A stretch of DNA of 64,000 nucleotides from Symbiodinium natans. Its lineage: Eukaryota; Sar; Dinophyceae; Suessiales; Symbiodiniaceae. Under the pieces are notes generated by a model that was not told where the DNA came from, ran no database searches, and saw nothing but the letters and a program-made list of their open reading frames with translations. This document shows positions 17,535 through 42,033 of the stretch, one piece after another; the stretch's first letter is position 1; every line of letters starts with the position of its first letter. The DNA lies in the NCBI GenBank assembly GCA_905221605.1, contig CAJNDS010002524.1, positions 903,634 to 967,633 of the forward strand. Reading direction: 5' to 3'. The position numbers and the translations under genes were made by a program.

Positions 17535-20162
17535 AAAGTCCTAGGTTTCTGTGGGCTTGGGGCCTTTCAGGGGTGGGAAGAAGCCAGAAAACACCCTAGG
17601 ACAATGTCCTAGGTTTCTGTGGGCTTGGGGCCTTTCAGGGGTGGGAAGAAGCCAGAAAACACCCTAGGACAATGTCCTAGGTTTCTGGGTGGGGCCTTTC
17701 AGGGGTGGGAAGAAGCCAGAAAAACCCTAGGACAATGTCCTAGGTTTCTGTGGGCTTGGGGCCTTTCAGGGTGGGAAGAAGCCAGAAAACACCCTAGGAC
17801 AATGTCCTAGGTTTCTGGGCTTGGGGCCTTTCAGGGGTGGGAAGAAGCCAGAAAACACCCTAGGACAATGTCCTAGGTTTCTGTGGGCTTGGGGCCTTTC
17901 AGGGGTGGGAAGAAGCCAATAGGACAATGTCCTAGGTTTCTGGTGCTTGGGGCCTTTCAGGGGTGGGAAGAAGCCAGAAAACACCCTAGGACAATGTACT
18001 AGGTTTCTGGTGCTTGGGGCCTTTCAGGCGTGGGAAGAAGCCAGAAAACACCCTAGGACAATGTCCTAGGTTTCTGGGGCTTGGGGCCTTTCAGGGGTGG
18101 GAAGAAGCCAGAAAACACCCTAGGACAATGTCCTAGGTTTCTGTGGGCTTGGGGCCTCTCAGGGGTGGGAAGAAGCGAAAACGCCCTAGGACAATGTCCT
18201 AGGTTTCTGTGGCCTTGGGGCGTTTCAGGGGTGGGAAGAAGCCAGAAAACCCCCCAGGACAATGTCCTAGGTTTCTGGGGCTTGGGGCCTTTCAGGGGTG
18301 GGAAGAAGCCAGAAAACACCCTAGGACAATGTCCTAGGTTTCTGGGGCTTGGGGCCTTTCAGGGGTGGGAAGAAGCCAGAAAACACCCTAGGACAATGTC
18401 CTAGGTTGCTCTTTCAGGGGTGGGAAGAGGGCAGAAAACACCCTAGGACAATGTCCTAGGTTTCTGTGGGCTTGGGGCCTTTCAGAAAACACCCTTGGAC
18501 AATGTCCTAGGTTTCTGTGGCTTGGGGCTTTTCAGGGGTGGGAAGAAGCCAGAAAACGCCCTAGGACAATGTCCTAGGTTTCTGTGGGCTTGGGGCCTTG
18601 CAGGGGTGGGAAGAAGCCAGAAGACACCCTAGGACAATGTCCTAGGTTTCTGGGGCTTGGGGCATTTCAGGGGTGGGAAGAAGCCAGAAAACACCCTAGG
18701 ACAATGTCCTAGGTTTCTGTGGGTTTGGGGCCTTTCAGGGGTGGGAAGAAGCCGGAAAACACCCTAGGACAATGTCCTAGGTTTCTGGGGCTTGGGGCCT
18801 TTCAGGCGTGGGAAGAAGCCAGAAAACAGCCTAGGACAATGTCCTAGGTTTCTGTGGGCTTGGGGCCTTTCAGGGGTGGGAAGAAGCCAAAAAACACCCT
18901 AGGACAATGTCCTAGGTTTCTGGTGCTTGGGGCCTTTCAGGGGTGGGAAGAAGCCAGAAAACACCCTAGGACAATGTACTAGGTTTCTGGTGCTTGGGGC
19001 CTTTCAGGCGTGGGAAGAAGCCAGAAAACACCCTAGGACAATGTCCTAGGTTTCTGGGGCTTGGGGCCTTTCAGGGGTGGGAAGAAGCCAGAAAACACCC
19101 TAGGACAATGTCCTAGGTTTCTGTGGGCTTGGGGCCTCTCAGGGGTGGGAAGAAGCCAGAAAACACCCCAGGACAATGTCCTAGGTTTCTGGGGCTTGGG
19201 GCCTTTCAGGGGTGGGAAGAAGCCAGAAAACACCCAGGACAATGTCCTAGGTTTCTGGGGCTTGGGGCCTTTCAGGGGTGGGAAGAAGCCAGAAAACACC
19301 CTAGGACAATGTCCTAGGTTTCTGGGGGCTTGGGGCCTTTCAGGGGTGGGAAGAAACCAGAAAACACCCAGGACAATGTCCTAGGTTTCTGTGGCTTGGG
19401 GCCTTTCAGGGGTGGGAAGAGGCCAGAAAACGCCCTAGGACAATGTCCTAGGTTTCTGTGGCTTGGGGCCTTTCAGGGGTGGGAAGAAGCCAGAAAACGC
19501 CCTGGGACAATGTCCTAGGTTTCTGTGGGCTTGGGGCCTTGCAGGGGTGGGAAGAAGCCAGAGAACACCCTAGGACAATGTCCTGGGTTTCTGGGGCTTG
19601 GGGCCTTTCAGGGGTGGGAAGAAGCCAGAAAACACCCTAGGACAATGTCCTAGGTTTCTGGGGCTTGGGGCCTTTCAGGGGTGGGAAGAAGCCAGAAAAC
19701 ACCCTAGGACAATGTCCTAGGTTGCTCTTTCAGGGGTGGGAAGAGGGCAGAAAACACCCTAGGACAATGTCCTAGGTTTCTGTGGGCTTGGGGCCTTTCA
19801 GAAAACACCCTTGGACAATGTCCTAGGTTTCTGTGGCTTGGGGCTTTTCAGGGGTGGGAAGAAGCCAGAAAACGCCCTAGGACAATGTCCTAGGTTTCTG
19901 TGGGCTTGGGGCCTTGCAGGGGTGGGAAGAAGCCAGAAGACACCCTAGGACAATGTCCTAGGTTTCTGGGGCTTGGGGCATTTCAGGGGTGGGAAGAAGC
20001 CAGAAAACACCCTAGGACAATGTCCTAGGTTTCTGTGGGTTTGGGGCCTTTCAGGGGTGGGAAGAAGCCGGAAAACACCCTAGGACAATGTCCTAGGTTT
20101 CTGGGGCTTGGGGCCTTTCAGGCGTGGGAAGAAGCCAGAAAACAGCCTAGGACAATGTCCCA
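17535..20162. repeat. 68-bp satellite array, about 38 units
   Basis: Unit length is about 66-70 bp. Each unit contains GGGGCCTTTCAGGGGTGGG, AAGAAGCCAGAAAACACC and the palindrome CCTAGGACAATGTCCTAGG (8-bp arms, 3-base loop). Units vary by small indels and point changes. Blocks are duplicated at a higher order: 18401-18844 matches 19717-20160, and the variant around 17991 recurs around 18971. Apparent long frames on both strands are by-products of a near-multiple-of-three unit. Confidence 0.95.
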
Positions 20163-31995: not shown

Positions 31996-32230
31996 AGGGT
32001 TTAGGGTTTTGCTGTGATAGGGCGTAGATGCTGTGAAGGTTAGGTTTCGGAACAAGCTCGAAAGCTTCGTGAGGTGCGAAGAGCAGCATTGGCCCGATTG
32101 TGGACGGCCATCTAACACTTTTCTCCCACGCCACGCCGTCCGAGGCGGCAAAGCCACCCAAACCTATTCCTTTTAGGGTTTAGGCCTAAACTCAGACAAC
32201 AGCCCACTTCTAAAAACTTAGGCAGTTTCA
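31996..32230. repeat. Dispersed repeat D1, copy without H5 insertion
   Basis: It shares with 40212-40610 the blocks GCTGTGAAGGTT, GGCCCGATTGTGGA (uninterrupted here), GGCCATCTAACACT, CCACGCCGTCCGAGGCGGCA and CTAAACTCAGACAACAGCCC. It preserves the empty site of an H5 element and a short form of a CCCTAAA tract. Confidence 0.75.
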
Positions 32231-38609: not shown

Positions 38610-38631
38610 TCCGTAGCAATTTTCGCTCAAG
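38610..38631 (+). other. Relic dinoflagellate spliced-leader sequence
   Basis: It matches the 22-nt dinoflagellate spliced leader at 20 positions; C9 is A and G15 is C. It begins TCCGTAGC and ends GCTCAAG, in the sense orientation, 58 bases before the glutathione S-transferase ATG. Known relic leaders mark reverse-transcribed, trans-spliced mRNAs reinserted in the genome. The downstream gene nevertheless has introns. Confidence 0.8.
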
Positions 38632-38689
38632 AAGGACCCGCAGCGCGTCTGAGAGCGGCATCAGCCAGTAGCCCTTGAGCATCCAGACC

Positions 38690-41644
38690 ATGCCCAACTT
38701 CAAGTTCCTTGAGAACCAAATATGAACCCTAAAGTTGGGTTTAAGGTTTCTAGGGTTTGGGGTTTAGGGGTCATGCACCCTATACTACTACAAGCCCAAT
38801 TAAGGTACATGAAATGCTCAACTACCAACTACAAGTTCCTTGAGGACCAAATGAACCCTTTCAGTTGGGGGGTCATAGACCCTCTACCACTAGCATCCAA
38901 AGACTTGGGGGTCATATGCCCCATACTACTGTAAGCCCTATAAACCCTATAAACCTTAACCCCTAAACCCTAAGCTCGCCCTCGTTCTTAAACCCCTCAT
39001 CCCTTTTAAGGTTTTCGACCCTACAAGCCCTTTTGGGCTTCCCCTAAACGCTAAACCCTAAACCCTAAACCCTAAACCCTAAACCCTAAACTCTTCGCCG
39101 CCAAGGTTGACCTACTTCGACATCCGCGGGCTCGCCGAGAATGCACGCATCTTCTTCGCCGTGGCGAAGCAGCCCTATGAGGATGTCAGGCAGCCCTCGG
39201 GTTTAGGGTTTAGGGTTTAGGGTTTAGGGTTTAGGGTTTAGGGTGTAGGGTTTAGGGTTTAGGGTTTAGGGTTTAGGGTTTAGGGTTTAGGGATGAAGAT
39301 GCCAGGCTTTCTTTCTCGTTTGGGACACCTGGCGACTTCAGCACCATCAAGCGCCCGGAGTTCCTTGGTCCAACCGTAACATTGGGGTCATCTACCTTAT
39401 ACGAAATCTGCTGTTGCAAGATAAATGAACCCTGTACCCGAAACCCGAAACCCTAAACCCTAAACCCTCAACCCTAAACCCTAAACCCTTTTTAGGGGCT
39501 CCTTTGACCCCAAGGTTTGACGAGATGAAGGCGAAGGGTGAGCTGGACATCTCTCTGGGCAAGGTTCCGCTTCTGGATTCTCGGCTTAGGGTTTAGGGTT
39601 TGAGGTTTAGGGTTTAGGGTTTAGGGTTTTAGGGTTTAGGGTTTAGGGTTTAGGGTTTAGGGTTTAGGGTTCAGAGTTTGGGGTTTAGGGTTTAGGGCAT
39701 CTGTTTTATACTTCCCGTTTTTTCGTGAAGATGGGTTTGAGAGCATCACATCCTTCAGCAGTTTTTCACATCCATTAACATGTTGCAGTGTTTTTGCATG
39801 GGCCGGCCTTTTATTGCACGGAATCATGTCCAGAAACATCAGCGTCCAGCAGATGCAGCCCGAAAACCCGAAACCGCGAAGCCCCCAAACCCCCAAACCC
39901 CCTAAACCCTAAACCCTAGACCCTAAACCCTAAACCCTAAAACCCCCAAAACCCTAAAACCCTAAACCAGCCCAGGAGGTGGACGGTGTGAAGGTTGGAC
40001 AGTCCAAGGCCATCGAGCGCTTCCTCTCCCGGGAGCTTGGGCTGGCTGGTTCCAGCCCCATTGAGGGCGCACAGGCTTGGGTAGCCTACCTGGGGGGTTT
40101 AGGTTTTAGGGTCTAGGGATTTGGGTTTAGGGTTTCGGGTTCAGGGTTCGGGTTTAGGGTTTCGGGTTCAGGGTTCGGGTTTAGGGTTTGGGGTTTGGGG
40201 TTTAGGATTTAGGCTGTGATACTGGTATGGCGCAGAAGCTGTGAAGGTTGGGATGCAGGCCAGCCTCGAAATTCTTCGGTGAAATGCGACGAGCAGCCAT
40301 GGCCCGATTGTCTTGGTAGCCCAGTGGTACCCTTTACCCTTTGTTTTGGTTCTGGTTATGGTTTCCCTGATAACATAACCAACCCAAAAAGGGTGCCCTT
40401 CTTATAATATGGTTACTGGGCTGCCAAGTTGTGGAGGGCCATCTGACACTATTATCCCACCCCACGCCGTCCCAGGCGGCAAAGCCACCCAAACTGAAAT
40501 TCTTGCTAGGACCTAAACCCTAAACCCAAAAAAAAAAAGCCTAATCCCTAAACCCTAAACCCTAAACCCTAAACTCAAGTTCATTGTCTACTTCCAAACA
40601 ACTTCTTCCGTTACCGATGCCAGGCCAGTTCCCCGGGTGCAGAGGGTGCCAGGGTCCGTCTTAGGGGTCGCAAAGGGTCCCGCGGTCCCCTGATCCAGGG
40701 GGCCGCCTAGGCCTTGAGTTTAGGGTTTAGGGCACCCCACCTCGGGGATCAAAAACTGAACCCTCAAGATGTGGTCATGTACAGGCTTCCTTGTAGGGTA
40801 TATGAAGCCTAAGCCCTTTTGGGGTTCATCTGGTCCCCCAGGCAGTGGTGCCCTTTGGCCCTTTTTCTTGGGGTGCAAGGTTCCTATTCTAAAGTATCAC
40901 CAGCCCCCCAAACAAGGGTGCCCTGATTTAGGAAAAAATGGTTCCTGGGCCACCAAACAGGTCGACCAGCTCGGCGAGACAGTCCGCGACATCAAGGATG
41001 CATACCAGAAGGTTCCGGGGTCTTGGTTGGGAGTTTTTGTTGCGCTGGCGTGGGTGCATGAACCCCATATAAGTAACTGGATGGTCATCTTAAACGACAT
41101 CGATTTCATGGCTCAGGTTCGTGGGCTGCAAGACGAGGAAGAGAAGAAGAAGGGCATGGAGAAGTGGTTCGCAGAAGACCTCCCCAACTGGTGCAAGCTG
41201 GCGGAAAAGTCGCTCCCCGCCGGACCTGGACCGTTCATGGTTGGTGGCAACTTTGTCATAGTTGGGTAACATTCTCCTTTTTTAATGGTACTTAACACCC
41301 AATAAGGAATAAAAGACACATTTTTTAATGTTATCCCAACAATGAACTAGGCAAAGTGTCGGCTGCCGACTTGCTCTTCTACACCCTCCTCCTCGCCCCC
41401 GGATGCTTCTTCGACAACACCGAGGGCGCGAAGGCTGCTTTCCAGGAGTCTAGATCAGTGTTAGGGATCCTTTTTACTTTTTGGGTTATGGGCTTTCTTA
41501 TATATGGACAAAAAGGATCCTTTTTTTCTTCCTAGGGGAACAGGGATTAAGGAGTGCCCGAAGATGAAAGCTGCGCTGGAGGCGGTGGATGCTCTCCCCC
41601 AGCTGCAGGAGTACCTCAAAGCGCGCAAGGTGACTCCCTTCTGA
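38690..41644 (+). CDS. Glutathione S-transferase, sigma-like, 9 exons
   Basis: Exons are 38690-38703, 39106-39189, 39306-39359, 39515-39575, 39976-40074, 40961-41011, 41117-41246, 41351-41445 and 41552-41644: 681 nt, 226 residues plus TGA, phases consistent throughout. The product conjugates glutathione to electrophiles in the cytosol or isomerises related substrates. The start MPNFKLTYFDIRGLAEN has the sigma-class catalytic Tyr at 8. KVPLLE carries the cis-Pro (69), QSKAI the glutathione-binding Gln-Ser (80-81), and GKVSAADLLFY the N-capping Ser and Asp (168, 171). About 200-230 residues is the usual length. Donors are GT (introns 1, 3, 6), GC (2, 5, 7) and GA (4, 8). The 14-nt first exon is the least certain but gives a very typical N-terminus. 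Confidence 0.88.
38704..39105 (+). other. GST intron 1 with tandem H4-type blocks
   Basis: Two blocks begin AGTTCCTTGAGAACCAAATA (38703) and AGTTCCTTGAGGACCAAATG (38833). The second is preceded by CCAACTACAAG, a near-copy of the exon end CCAACTTCAAG, so part of exon 1 with its donor seems duplicated. A CCCTAAA tract ends at 39090. Confidence 0.6.
39190..39305 (+). other. GST intron 2 (GC-AG), nearly all TTTAGGG
   Basis: It is 116 nt, of which about 95 are TTTAGGG units. CAGGC occurs at both splice junctions. A telomere-like tract thus makes up almost a whole intron. Confidence 0.85.
39576..39975 (+). other. GST intron 4 with opposed tracts (GA-AG)
   Basis: TTTAGGG near the 5' end (39584-39695) faces CCCTAAA near the 3' end (39899-39966), so the splice sites could be brought together by an RNA stem. 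The donor CTG|GATTC and acceptor CCCAG|GAGGTG are supported by phase; an AG three bases later is possible. Confidence 0.7.
40212..40610. repeat. Dispersed repeat D1, copy with H5 and tract insertions
   Basis: It matches 31996-32230 but is interrupted by an H5 element (40312-40428) and an expanded CCCTAAA tract (40509-40575) at the CCTAAACTCA site. It lies within GST intron 5. Confidence 0.75.
40312..40428. mobile_element. H5 element with 4-bp target-site duplication
   Basis: Terminal inverted repeats CTTGGTAGCCCAGT and ACTGGGCTGCCAAG (13 of 14 pair). TTGT flanks both sides. The related empty site at about 32098 reads GATTGTGG with a single TTGT, so insertion with duplication of TTGT is directly visible. 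Confidence 0.85.
40743..40955. mobile_element. H4 element followed by an H5-like element in GST intron 5
   Basis: An H4 pair (GGGGATCAAAAACTGAACCC against GGGTTCATCTGGTCCCC) spans 40743-40839. An H5-like block (CAGGCAGTGGTGCCCTTT, AAACAAGGGTGCCCTG, GGTTCCTGGGCCACC) then runs up to six bases before the splice acceptor. Confidence 0.6.
41012..41116 (+). other. GST intron 6, 105 nt, flanked by AGGTTC
   Basis: GT-AG. AGGTTC occurs at both junctions (41010-41015 and 41115-41120). No clear terminal inverted repeats remain, and no telomere-like repeat is present. Confidence 0.75.
41247..41350 (+). mobile_element. GST intron 7: introner-like hairpin (GC-AG)
   Basis: 104 nt. The arms TAGTTGGGTAACATT and AATGTTATCCCAACAATGA pair, with further T-rich/A-rich pairing. 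GGCAA lies at both junctions (41246-41250, 41350-41354). The GC donor lies in the left repeat copy. Confidence 0.8.
41446..41551 (+). mobile_element. GST intron 8: introner-like element (GA-AG)
   Basis: 106 nt. An inner inverted pair GGATCCTTTTT and AAAAAGGATCC is present, and AGGAGT occurs at both junctions (41444-41449, 41550-41555). The donor must be GA to maintain the conserved C-terminal frame. Confidence 0.75.
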
Positions 41645-42033
41645 GATTGTGCCCGAATACGAGCACGCCCTCCAATGGTTAGATGTTTTAAGCCTGCAGG
41701 GGGAATGACTTGAGTGGCAGAGGCTTCGCCTAGCCCCATCAACCCTTGCACTCGACGAAGATGCAACTGGAGAGAGACAAAGAAATGCAGGTTAACTCAT
41801 ACATCCCGCCAGCGACTTGATTGACCACTGAAACACAATTTATAAAAAGAACAGAACGCCTACTTGAAGGTTCATGGGTACTTGTAGGCAGTATGCAGGG
41901 TTGGCAGTAGCATGATGGTTCCAGTCATAGTTGCCCTATTCATAACCCTAGTTATGCCCTAAGCCTAAACCCTAAACCCTGAACCCTGAACCCTAAACTG
42001 CCAAGCAACCCCTTTTGGTTCTCCCGTCGAGAG
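41645..42033 (+). other. GST 3' flank, no gene seen
   Basis: 3'UTR of undetermined length, an H1 left arm at 41860 (CTACTTGAAGGTTCATGGG), and a short CCCTAAA tract at 41966-41998. Confidence 0.5.

Follow-up and report, generated by a model that had tools for sequence, protein, structure and literature searches.

The 64-kb window analysed here, that is, the whole stretch of 64,000 nucleotides at positions 903,634 to 967,633 of contig CAJNDS010002524.1 of the dinoflagellate Symbiodinium natans, carries on its forward strand a glutathione S-transferase (GST) gene, hereafter W, which we believe descends from a trans-spliced mRNA that was written back into the genome and was then supplied with introns by introners. 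We give this reading a probability of roughly 0.68. In the mechanism we propose, a trans-spliced GST mRNA would have been reinserted in the genome with its leader kept as a relic, and its exons would later have been entered by introners, understood as small DNA elements, not autonomous, that bear terminal inverted repeats (TIRs). Each element, with ends CT...AG, would duplicate 4 bp of the exon upon insertion; its final AG would act as the 3′ splice site, and the target copy lying upstream, provided that it begins with GT, GC or GA, would become the 5′ splice site, splicing of the whole insert restoring the exon exactly. As the donor would derive from the target-site duplication (TSD), it is predicted to copy the first bases of the following exon, and GC and GA donors would find their explanation in the same origin. 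To weigh this proposal, W was compared with a sister paralogue, C2066, and with an older one, C1002, both encoded in the same 759-Mb genome assembly of 2543 contigs.

The last two introns of W can be recognised from their sequence as mobile-element insertions into an uninterrupted exon. Intron 7 (41247-41350; GC-AG, 104 nt) consists of the duplicated target GCAA (4 nt) followed by a 100-bp mobile element at 41251-41350, and intron 8 (41446-41551; GA-AG, 106 nt) of the duplicated target GAGT (4 nt, GAGT/GAGT across the insertion) followed by a 102-bp mobile element at 41450-41551. In both cases, four duplicated exon bases and one full-length element make up the whole intron, with no remnant of an older one. 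Genome searches gave 499 first-look candidates for intron 8 and 1714 for intron 7, and all the 40 candidates scored for each of them matched (39 besides the intron itself), with identities of 96-99% for intron 8 and 84-89% for intron 7. Most of the intron 8 copies begin at base 4 or 5 and all of them run to base 106, and those of intron 7 mostly extend from base 3-5 to base 104. Flanking sequences were examined at 20 of the 78 sites other than the introns themselves (the 12 best for intron 8 and eight of the 10 best for intron 7), revealing perfect 4-bp duplications of 13 different words in 15 copies, partial agreement in the rest (3/4 in three of them, 2/4 and 1/4) and an alignment over the full element in 19. 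By families, a 4/4 TSD was found in 10 of the 12 intron 8 copies (3/4 and 1/4 in the others), all 12 of which align over positions 1-102, and in five of the eight intron 7 copies (3/4, 2/4 and 3/4 in the others), seven of which align over positions 1-100. A further copy of the intron 7 element (L021), found on W's own contig at a distance of ~44 kb, shows TGAA on both sides. Inverted repeats in register at the ends reach 8/12 for each of the two introns. A wider search also gave TIRs in intron 7 (p < 1/500), and in intron 8 it found a strong inverted repeat (11/11, p < 1/500) lying ~20-30 nt inside the ends. Moreover, intron 8 can be dated, because it differs by 1-4% from the scored members of its family, as against a synonymous divergence (dS) of 0.57 between W and C2066; on its sequence, the insertion is very recent, long after the split of the two genes. 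As a separate observation, one copy of the intron 7 element (L050) is flanked by TTTAGGG-like sequence with TTTA as its TSD, so that telomere-type repeats are also among the targets of these elements.

The other mark of the history of W is a relic of the dinoflagellate spliced leader (DinoSL) at 38610-38631. The first-pass annotation had described it as a 20-of-22 match lying 58 bases before the ATG, and this description is borne out: positions 38611-38631 match CCGTAGCCATTTTGGCTCAAG in 19/21 bases, or 20/22 against the D-prefixed form when the T at 38610 is included, and 58 nt separate the relic from the ATG of W. With up to three mismatches allowed, this is the sole leader match on both strands of the 64 kb and none of 100 shuffles gave one; in 290 kb of genome including the window (38 kb of it N), it is the only site with at least 17/21 matches. 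The relic is followed by AAGGACCC, without a GT donor. Leader-RNA genes carry a GT right after the leader, and for this reason the relic does not look like a copy of one of them. In C2066, a decayed relic (13/21) is found 57 nt upstream of the ATG at the homologous junction, where the 15 nt of GCTCAAG|AAGGACCC are identical in both genes; a score of 13/21 is reached by 0.4-0.8% of the AG-ending sites. The best upstream leader match of C1002 also scores 13/21, which is unremarkable for the length searched. The relic common to W and C2066 would either have been inherited from one retroposition, or W would have been copied later from an mRNA of the C2066 type, with a fresh leader spliced to the same acceptor. 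The better conservation of the relic in W (2 mismatches of 21, versus 8 in C2066; Fisher p 0.067) leans to the latter alternative, without deciding it. A second, older relic was considered at 38666-38686 (14/21, just before the ATG) and set aside as a weak lead, with nine other places on both strands of the window scoring 14-16/21; C2066 has an 11/21 leader match near the corresponding place.

The extent of the detectable similarity between W and C2066 roughly follows the limits of an mRNA. It spans the 5′ untranslated region (UTR; 38632-38689, beginning with AAGGACCC as in C2066), the coding sequence and ~125 nt of the 3′ UTR (alignable at 41645-41770). The global alignment of the 5′ UTRs beats 1000 of 1000 shuffles, with p 0.04 when the first 8 nt are left out. 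Neither the upstream flank (p 0.19 and 0.80) nor the downstream one (p 0.68) gave detectable similarity; the 75 nt beyond the alignable 3′ UTR gave p 0.096 against C2066 and, farther on, nothing. Close to the end of this weak similarity, A-rich 26-mers (16-17 A) start at 41830-41832, in a stretch (41830-41857) that is possibly a decayed poly(A); at least 16 A occur in 0.15% of the 26-mers of the window. By eye, the only way in which it was sought, no convincing insertion-site duplication was seen around the retrocopy. From all this we infer an mRNA stage covering the whole gene, at or before its split from C2066. The retroposition proposed in the first-pass annotation is partly supported: the relic is real and has a decayed counterpart in C2066, the event may have been W's own or may go back to the ancestor of the two sisters, and the passage of the whole mRNA, rather than of its 5′ end alone, through cDNA is presumed.

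A six-frame search of its own genome with 22 candidates scored (E up to 0.001) yielded two GST loci besides W, namely C2066, with nine introns, and C1002, with eight, both modelled by hand with tblastn guides. The three models together contain 25 introns, all of the GT/GC/GA-AG types and all with a G right after them. A tree built from 34 proteins joins W and C2066 as sisters (100/94), with P0001 and P0002 beside them (97/87, an open fork), and places C1002 together with a GST of S. necroappetens (100/100), which indicates an earlier split of this paralogue, its dS to W being 1.47. In nucleotides of the coding sequence, introns occur at 14, 98, 152, 213, 312, 363, 493 and 588 in W, at 223, 312, 363, 399, 433, 479, 547, 588 and 647 in C2066, and at 216, 348, 399, 432, 493, 527, 588 and 614 in C1002. 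The positions of introns 1 to 4 of W are used by neither paralogue, and codons 1-71 form one exon in both C2066 and C1002. Six of the nine C2066 positions are empty in W and three are occupied. Older paralogues sharing all the intron positions, which the first-pass annotation had named as the observation that would speak against a regain of introns, were not found: C1002 shares two of the eight and C2066 three. The claim that the introns were gained after retroposition stands largely for introns 1-4, absent in both paralogues, and for introns 7 and 8, which are element insertions, and may hold for introns 5 and 6.

Signs of the same insertion process extend to other introns of the family. The first four bases of the successive W introns match those of the next exon at 3, 2, 3, 2, 1, 4, 4 and 4 positions, 23/32 in total versus 15.7 expected (permutation p 0.011), and a run-length test of the junction repeats gave p 0.0026, so that the direct repeats reported earlier at several junctions were recovered. 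Among all 25 introns, the base at donor position 2 is the same as that at position 2 of the following exon in 18/25 cases (8.2 expected, p 0.0001) and the four-base agreement is 62/100 (47.0 expected, p 0.0004), with control stretches 4-20 bases further in giving p values of 0.06-0.62. Inverted repeats in the expected register are also in excess in W (50/96 versus 36.1 expected, p 0.0005), but not in the paralogues (26 versus 32.1 in C2066 and 30 versus 32.0 in C1002), and this excess restricted to W suggests that its introns are younger as a set. The register test was chosen after seeing a nested element in intron 5 (see below) and introns 3 and 7, which makes its p value optimistic; the genome copy searches are independent of it.

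Taken one by one, introns 1 (38704-39105; GT-AG, 402 nt), 3 (39360-39514; GT-AG, 155 nt) and 6 (41012-41116; GT-AG, 105 nt) would be older introners. Intron 1 shows a GTTC/gttg repeat (3/4), CTTG..CAAG ends and a TIR of 7/12 in register, intron 3 a GTTC/gttt repeat (3/4), CTTGG..CCAAG ends and 6/12, and intron 6, whose position is common with C2066, an AGGTTC repeat including a 4/4 GTTC together with 6/12. Intron 1 is probably not very recent, because it contains at 38825-38869 a copy of 38694-38739 (85% over 47 nt), that is, of the end of exon 1 and its own 5′ splice site. This duplication leaves a second potential donor, and the intronic copy of exon 1 would read P-N-Y-K, between the PSYK of the family and the PNFK of W. 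Introns 2 (39190-39305; GC-AG, 116 nt, with a GATGYCAGGC repeat of 9/10) and 4 (39576-39975; GA-AG, 400 nt, with the nearest introns of C1002 and C2066 lying 3 and 10 nt away) would be gains of less clear origin. Exact TTTAGGG-type heptamers make up 80% of intron 2, and the insertion of telomere repeats was considered as its source and rejected as not distinctive: these heptamers, of the plant telomere type, account for 18.4% of the window, where they run in both orientations and are missing from a single 2-kb bin, 18001-20000. The inverted repeats that the wider search found in introns 1 and 4 are also of the telomere-repeat type. When the introns were compared with the 290 kb of genome, a relative was found for intron 7 and for parts of intron 5, together with repeat-like matches for parts of intron 4; absence from this sample means little, since intron 8, with hundreds of genome-wide candidates, has none there.

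Intron 5 (40075-40960; GC-AG, 886 nt), at a position common with C2066, has ends without an insertion signature and harbours a nested 117-bp TIR element (40312-40428, forward strand) between two copies of TTGT (40308-40311 and 40429-40432). A paralogous empty site in the window keeps a single TTGT at 32098-32101, and this empty site constitutes the evidence for the insertion: a strict scan of the window for TIR elements with 4-bp TSDs gave two, or one (the nested element) once those with telomere-type ends were dropped; with one element turning up in 2 of 10 shuffles as well, the scan shows no excess. A relative of the nested element lies at 1359-1445.

Several results weigh against an origin of all the introns by late insertion, and most of them concern their positions. 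Introns 5, 6 and 8 coincide with positions of C2066 and introns 7 and 8 with positions of C1002, nt 588 having an intron in all three genes. Under a model of random insertion respecting the site classes AG|G, other G|G and remaining |G, the three pairs of genes share seven positions versus 2.4 expected (p 0.007), and W and C2066 share three versus 1.1 (p 0.054). This excess, which may reflect insertion hot spots, tolerance of the exon or a renewed use of ancestral sites after loss, cautions against the simplest form of the regain reading and, judged only from their positions, introns 5-8 would pass for ancestral. The insertion signatures are themselves uneven: introns 2, 4 and 5 lack a 4-bp TSD at the splice junction (2/4, 2/4 and 1/4), the wider search found no TIR in intron 6 (p 0.996), bases 3-4 of the junction repeats taken alone gave 8/16 versus 5.0 expected in W (p 0.093) and 19/50 versus 13.7 in the 25 introns (p 0.065), and the register inverted repeats of all 25 introns add up to 106 versus 100.5 (p 0.22). 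To these must be added that the lack of similarity in flanks and introns is weak evidence, because such regions turn over fast in genomes of this kind.

The sequences of the introns at the shared positions can nevertheless be set against those positions. Introns 7 and 8 entered an uninterrupted exon and, therefore, their coincidence with paralogue introns does not amount to homology; the sequence of W itself marks its insertions at nt 493 and 588 as independent of the introns of the paralogues. Homology of the introns at shared positions was rejected as a candidate explanation, with no likeness beyond shuffles found in the comparisons made (seven pairs in a first scoring and six of them in a second, a 7237-nt intron being compared by its two ends only), intron 8 against that of C1002 in one scoring being the exception. 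The W-C2066 introns gave p values of 0.28, 0.78 and 0.82, and of 0.45, 0.37, 0.83 and 0.87 in the second scoring. The introns of the paralogues at the intron 7 and 8 nucleotides show no detectable similarity to the elements, bar the same comparison of intron 8 with C1002 (p 0.025 in one scoring, the lowest of all pairs, and 0.08 in the other), which is moot because intron 8 is a recent element. In simulations of 60 trials each, the power to detect an orthologous intron at the W/C2066 divergence was 0.85-1.0 for lengths of 105-400 bp and 0.60-0.88 for 60 bp, under an assumption of simple neutral change; turnover by transposons would lower it. The 7237-nt intron is the one that the hand model of C2066 places at nt 588, and the public GST1 protein (P0003) stops just beyond this point, without the last exons. 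That W passed intron-free through an mRNA, with elements afterwards re-occupying the nucleotides 312, 363, 493 and 588 used by paralogue introns, is a conjecture that we would place somewhat below even odds, and its intron-erasing step would belong to the same scenario.

Other histories could be proposed for the same data. W and C2066 could be mere DNA duplicates that gained and lost introns by introner insertion and loss, the relic being an old mark of the family and no retroposition having mattered for the introns. The decayed relic of C2066 means that such a mark need not be specific to W, and each of the three genes has 8-9 introns, most of them at sites of its own, including C1002 with its unremarkable upstream leader match; on the other hand, the detectable similarity to C2066 ends about where an mRNA would end, and the relic of W is better kept, as expected if it had been renewed. 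We consider such a history unlikely, although it deserves to be kept in mind. A narrower role of the cDNA, which would have rewritten only the 5′ end of the gene by recombination or gene conversion, would let the 5′ half take introns 1-4 later and the 3′ half keep ancestral introns 5-8. The clean division between unique introns at the 5′ side and introns shared by position at the 3′ side agrees with it, and so does a total position sharing above that of the simple model. However, the hits of introns 7 and 8 on an uninterrupted exon imply that introns at these places of the 3′ half had either been lost or never existed, and no such rewriting is needed for an intron-free 5′ part, since codons 1-71 are free of introns in the two paralogues as well. 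Moreover, the dS between W and C2066 is higher in the 5′ part (0.79 versus 0.42), opposite to what a recent conversion by a C2066 mRNA would leave, and we regard this possibility as distinctly improbable.

Still more doubtful is the retroposition of an incompletely spliced, trans-spliced pre-mRNA that carried along introns 5 and 6 and perhaps an older intron at nt 588, later lost. Introns 5 and 6 do lie at C2066 sites, and dinoflagellate genes with relic leaders and introns are known, which were read as keeping their introns (PMC6050394, cited, like the other papers below, from excerpts of its text), but the shared sites of W and C2066 show no sequence similarity in spite of a simulated power of 0.60-1.0 depending on length. 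Finally, the positions shared by two paralogues could all be ancestral, later transposons having merely replaced the contents of the introns. Parsimony on positions and the occupation of nt 588 in all three genes speak in its favour; such a replacement is contradicted for introns 7 and 8 by their make-up of four exon bases and one full-length element without an older remnant, and we find it scarcely credible. The reading that we prefer is still the descent of W from a reinserted trans-spliced mRNA with introns supplied afterwards by introners.

Each ingredient of this case is already known, and so is the mechanism in Symbiodinium. In dinoflagellate retrogenes the relic leaders lie at -50 to -100 (PMC6050394), and W resembles the retrogenes with relic DinoSL of the excerpted reports (PMC6050394, PMC12014239) in having its relic, at 58 nt, upstream of the start codon. 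The excerpts of the same sources (PMC6050394/PMC12014239) also count a GST as one of the retrogenes of Gymnodinium catenatum. Intron-containing retrogenes were also detected, with their introns read as retained, and the excerpt of PMC6050394 mentions 'novel or inherited' introns for retrogenes in general only; W differs in that two of its introns have been traced to later insertions. The introners of S. microadriaticum (Gozashti et al. 2022, PMC9860276, as excerpted) share the 4-bp TSD, the TIR, the 3′ splice site borne by the element and the 5′ splice site derived from the TSD, although the families found in W come from another species and are likened to them by mechanism, not by sequence. 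The excerpt on Amoebophrya introner elements (PMC7789003) describes, as here, short direct repeats (3-5 nt) across exon borders together with inverted repeats, chiefly among introns with non-canonical splice sites, whereas the 25 introns examined here are GT/GC/GA-AG. Inverted repeats and direct repeats of 3-5 nt at intron ends are likewise known in Prorocentrum cordatum (PMC10666404), as genome-wide statistics and, in the excerpt, without a link to single retrogenes. Fungal introner-like elements (PMC4457414) offer the same parallel gains, with fresh introners where other genes have ordinary introns, but according to the excerpt of PMC9860276 they lack TSD and TIR, and our comparison is between paralogues of one genome. 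Five dinoflagellate genomes have been analysed for introners, which were recently active in four of them (cited in the review PMC11453091, as excerpted); introners and retroposition both appear in PMC11453091 and PMC10666404, whose excerpts treat them apart. A full-text search among open-access papers gave six that mention retrogenes and introners together, none of them dealing with dinoflagellates by its title, and a search of viral contigs for relatives gave 11 pattern matches, none of them confirmed.

W would therefore stand as a tagged retrogene lineage in which the divergence of the gene serves to date the insertion of individual introns. A shared intron position is not evidence of common intron descent in such genomes, which matters for the dating of retrogenes and for the use of intron positions as markers, and the model of retroposition followed by regain becomes testable genome-wide. 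If the conjectured re-occupation of paralogue positions were true, convergence would account for most intron positions shared by dinoflagellate paralogues, with insertion hot spots or the tolerance of exons deciding where introns settle, and retroposition and introners together would form a cycle erasing and rewriting gene structure.

The structure of nine exons and eight introns given by the first-pass annotation was maintained in a re-drawn model, in which the exons lie at 38690-38703, 39106-39189, 39306-39359, 39515-39575, 39976-40074, 40961-41011, 41117-41246, 41351-41445 and 41552-41644 (the last one with the stop codon) and join into an open GST frame of 226 amino acids starting at the ATG at 38690. 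The first model had six extra residues, and a comparison with homologues moved the limits of intron 8 to 41446-41551. In the first, 232-residue model, the Pfam domains PF14497 (GST_C_3, 53.7 bits) and PF02798 (GST_N, 34.1 bits) were both above the cut-off. The top identity among the best 120 of 278 protein matches was 93%, and the closest named protein among the matches listed was GST1 of S. natans, with 93% identity over 85%. Three of the eight introns are GT-AG, three GC-AG and two GA-AG, and their splicing is suggested by a joined frame that is colinear with the homologues. W looks functional by virtue of its low nonsynonymous divergence (dN 0.034 to C2066) and of branch lengths similar in both genes (0.042 for W and 0.039 for C2066), and very probably it is a working GST gene. 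A tRNA scan and an Rfam scan of the 64-kb window gave no hits. Two proteins of Effrenium voratum show small oddities, a repeated AYED near codon 30 in P0007 and three extra residues after codon 116, the site of a C1002 intron, in P0014; both might be introner duplications mis-drawn in the gene models.

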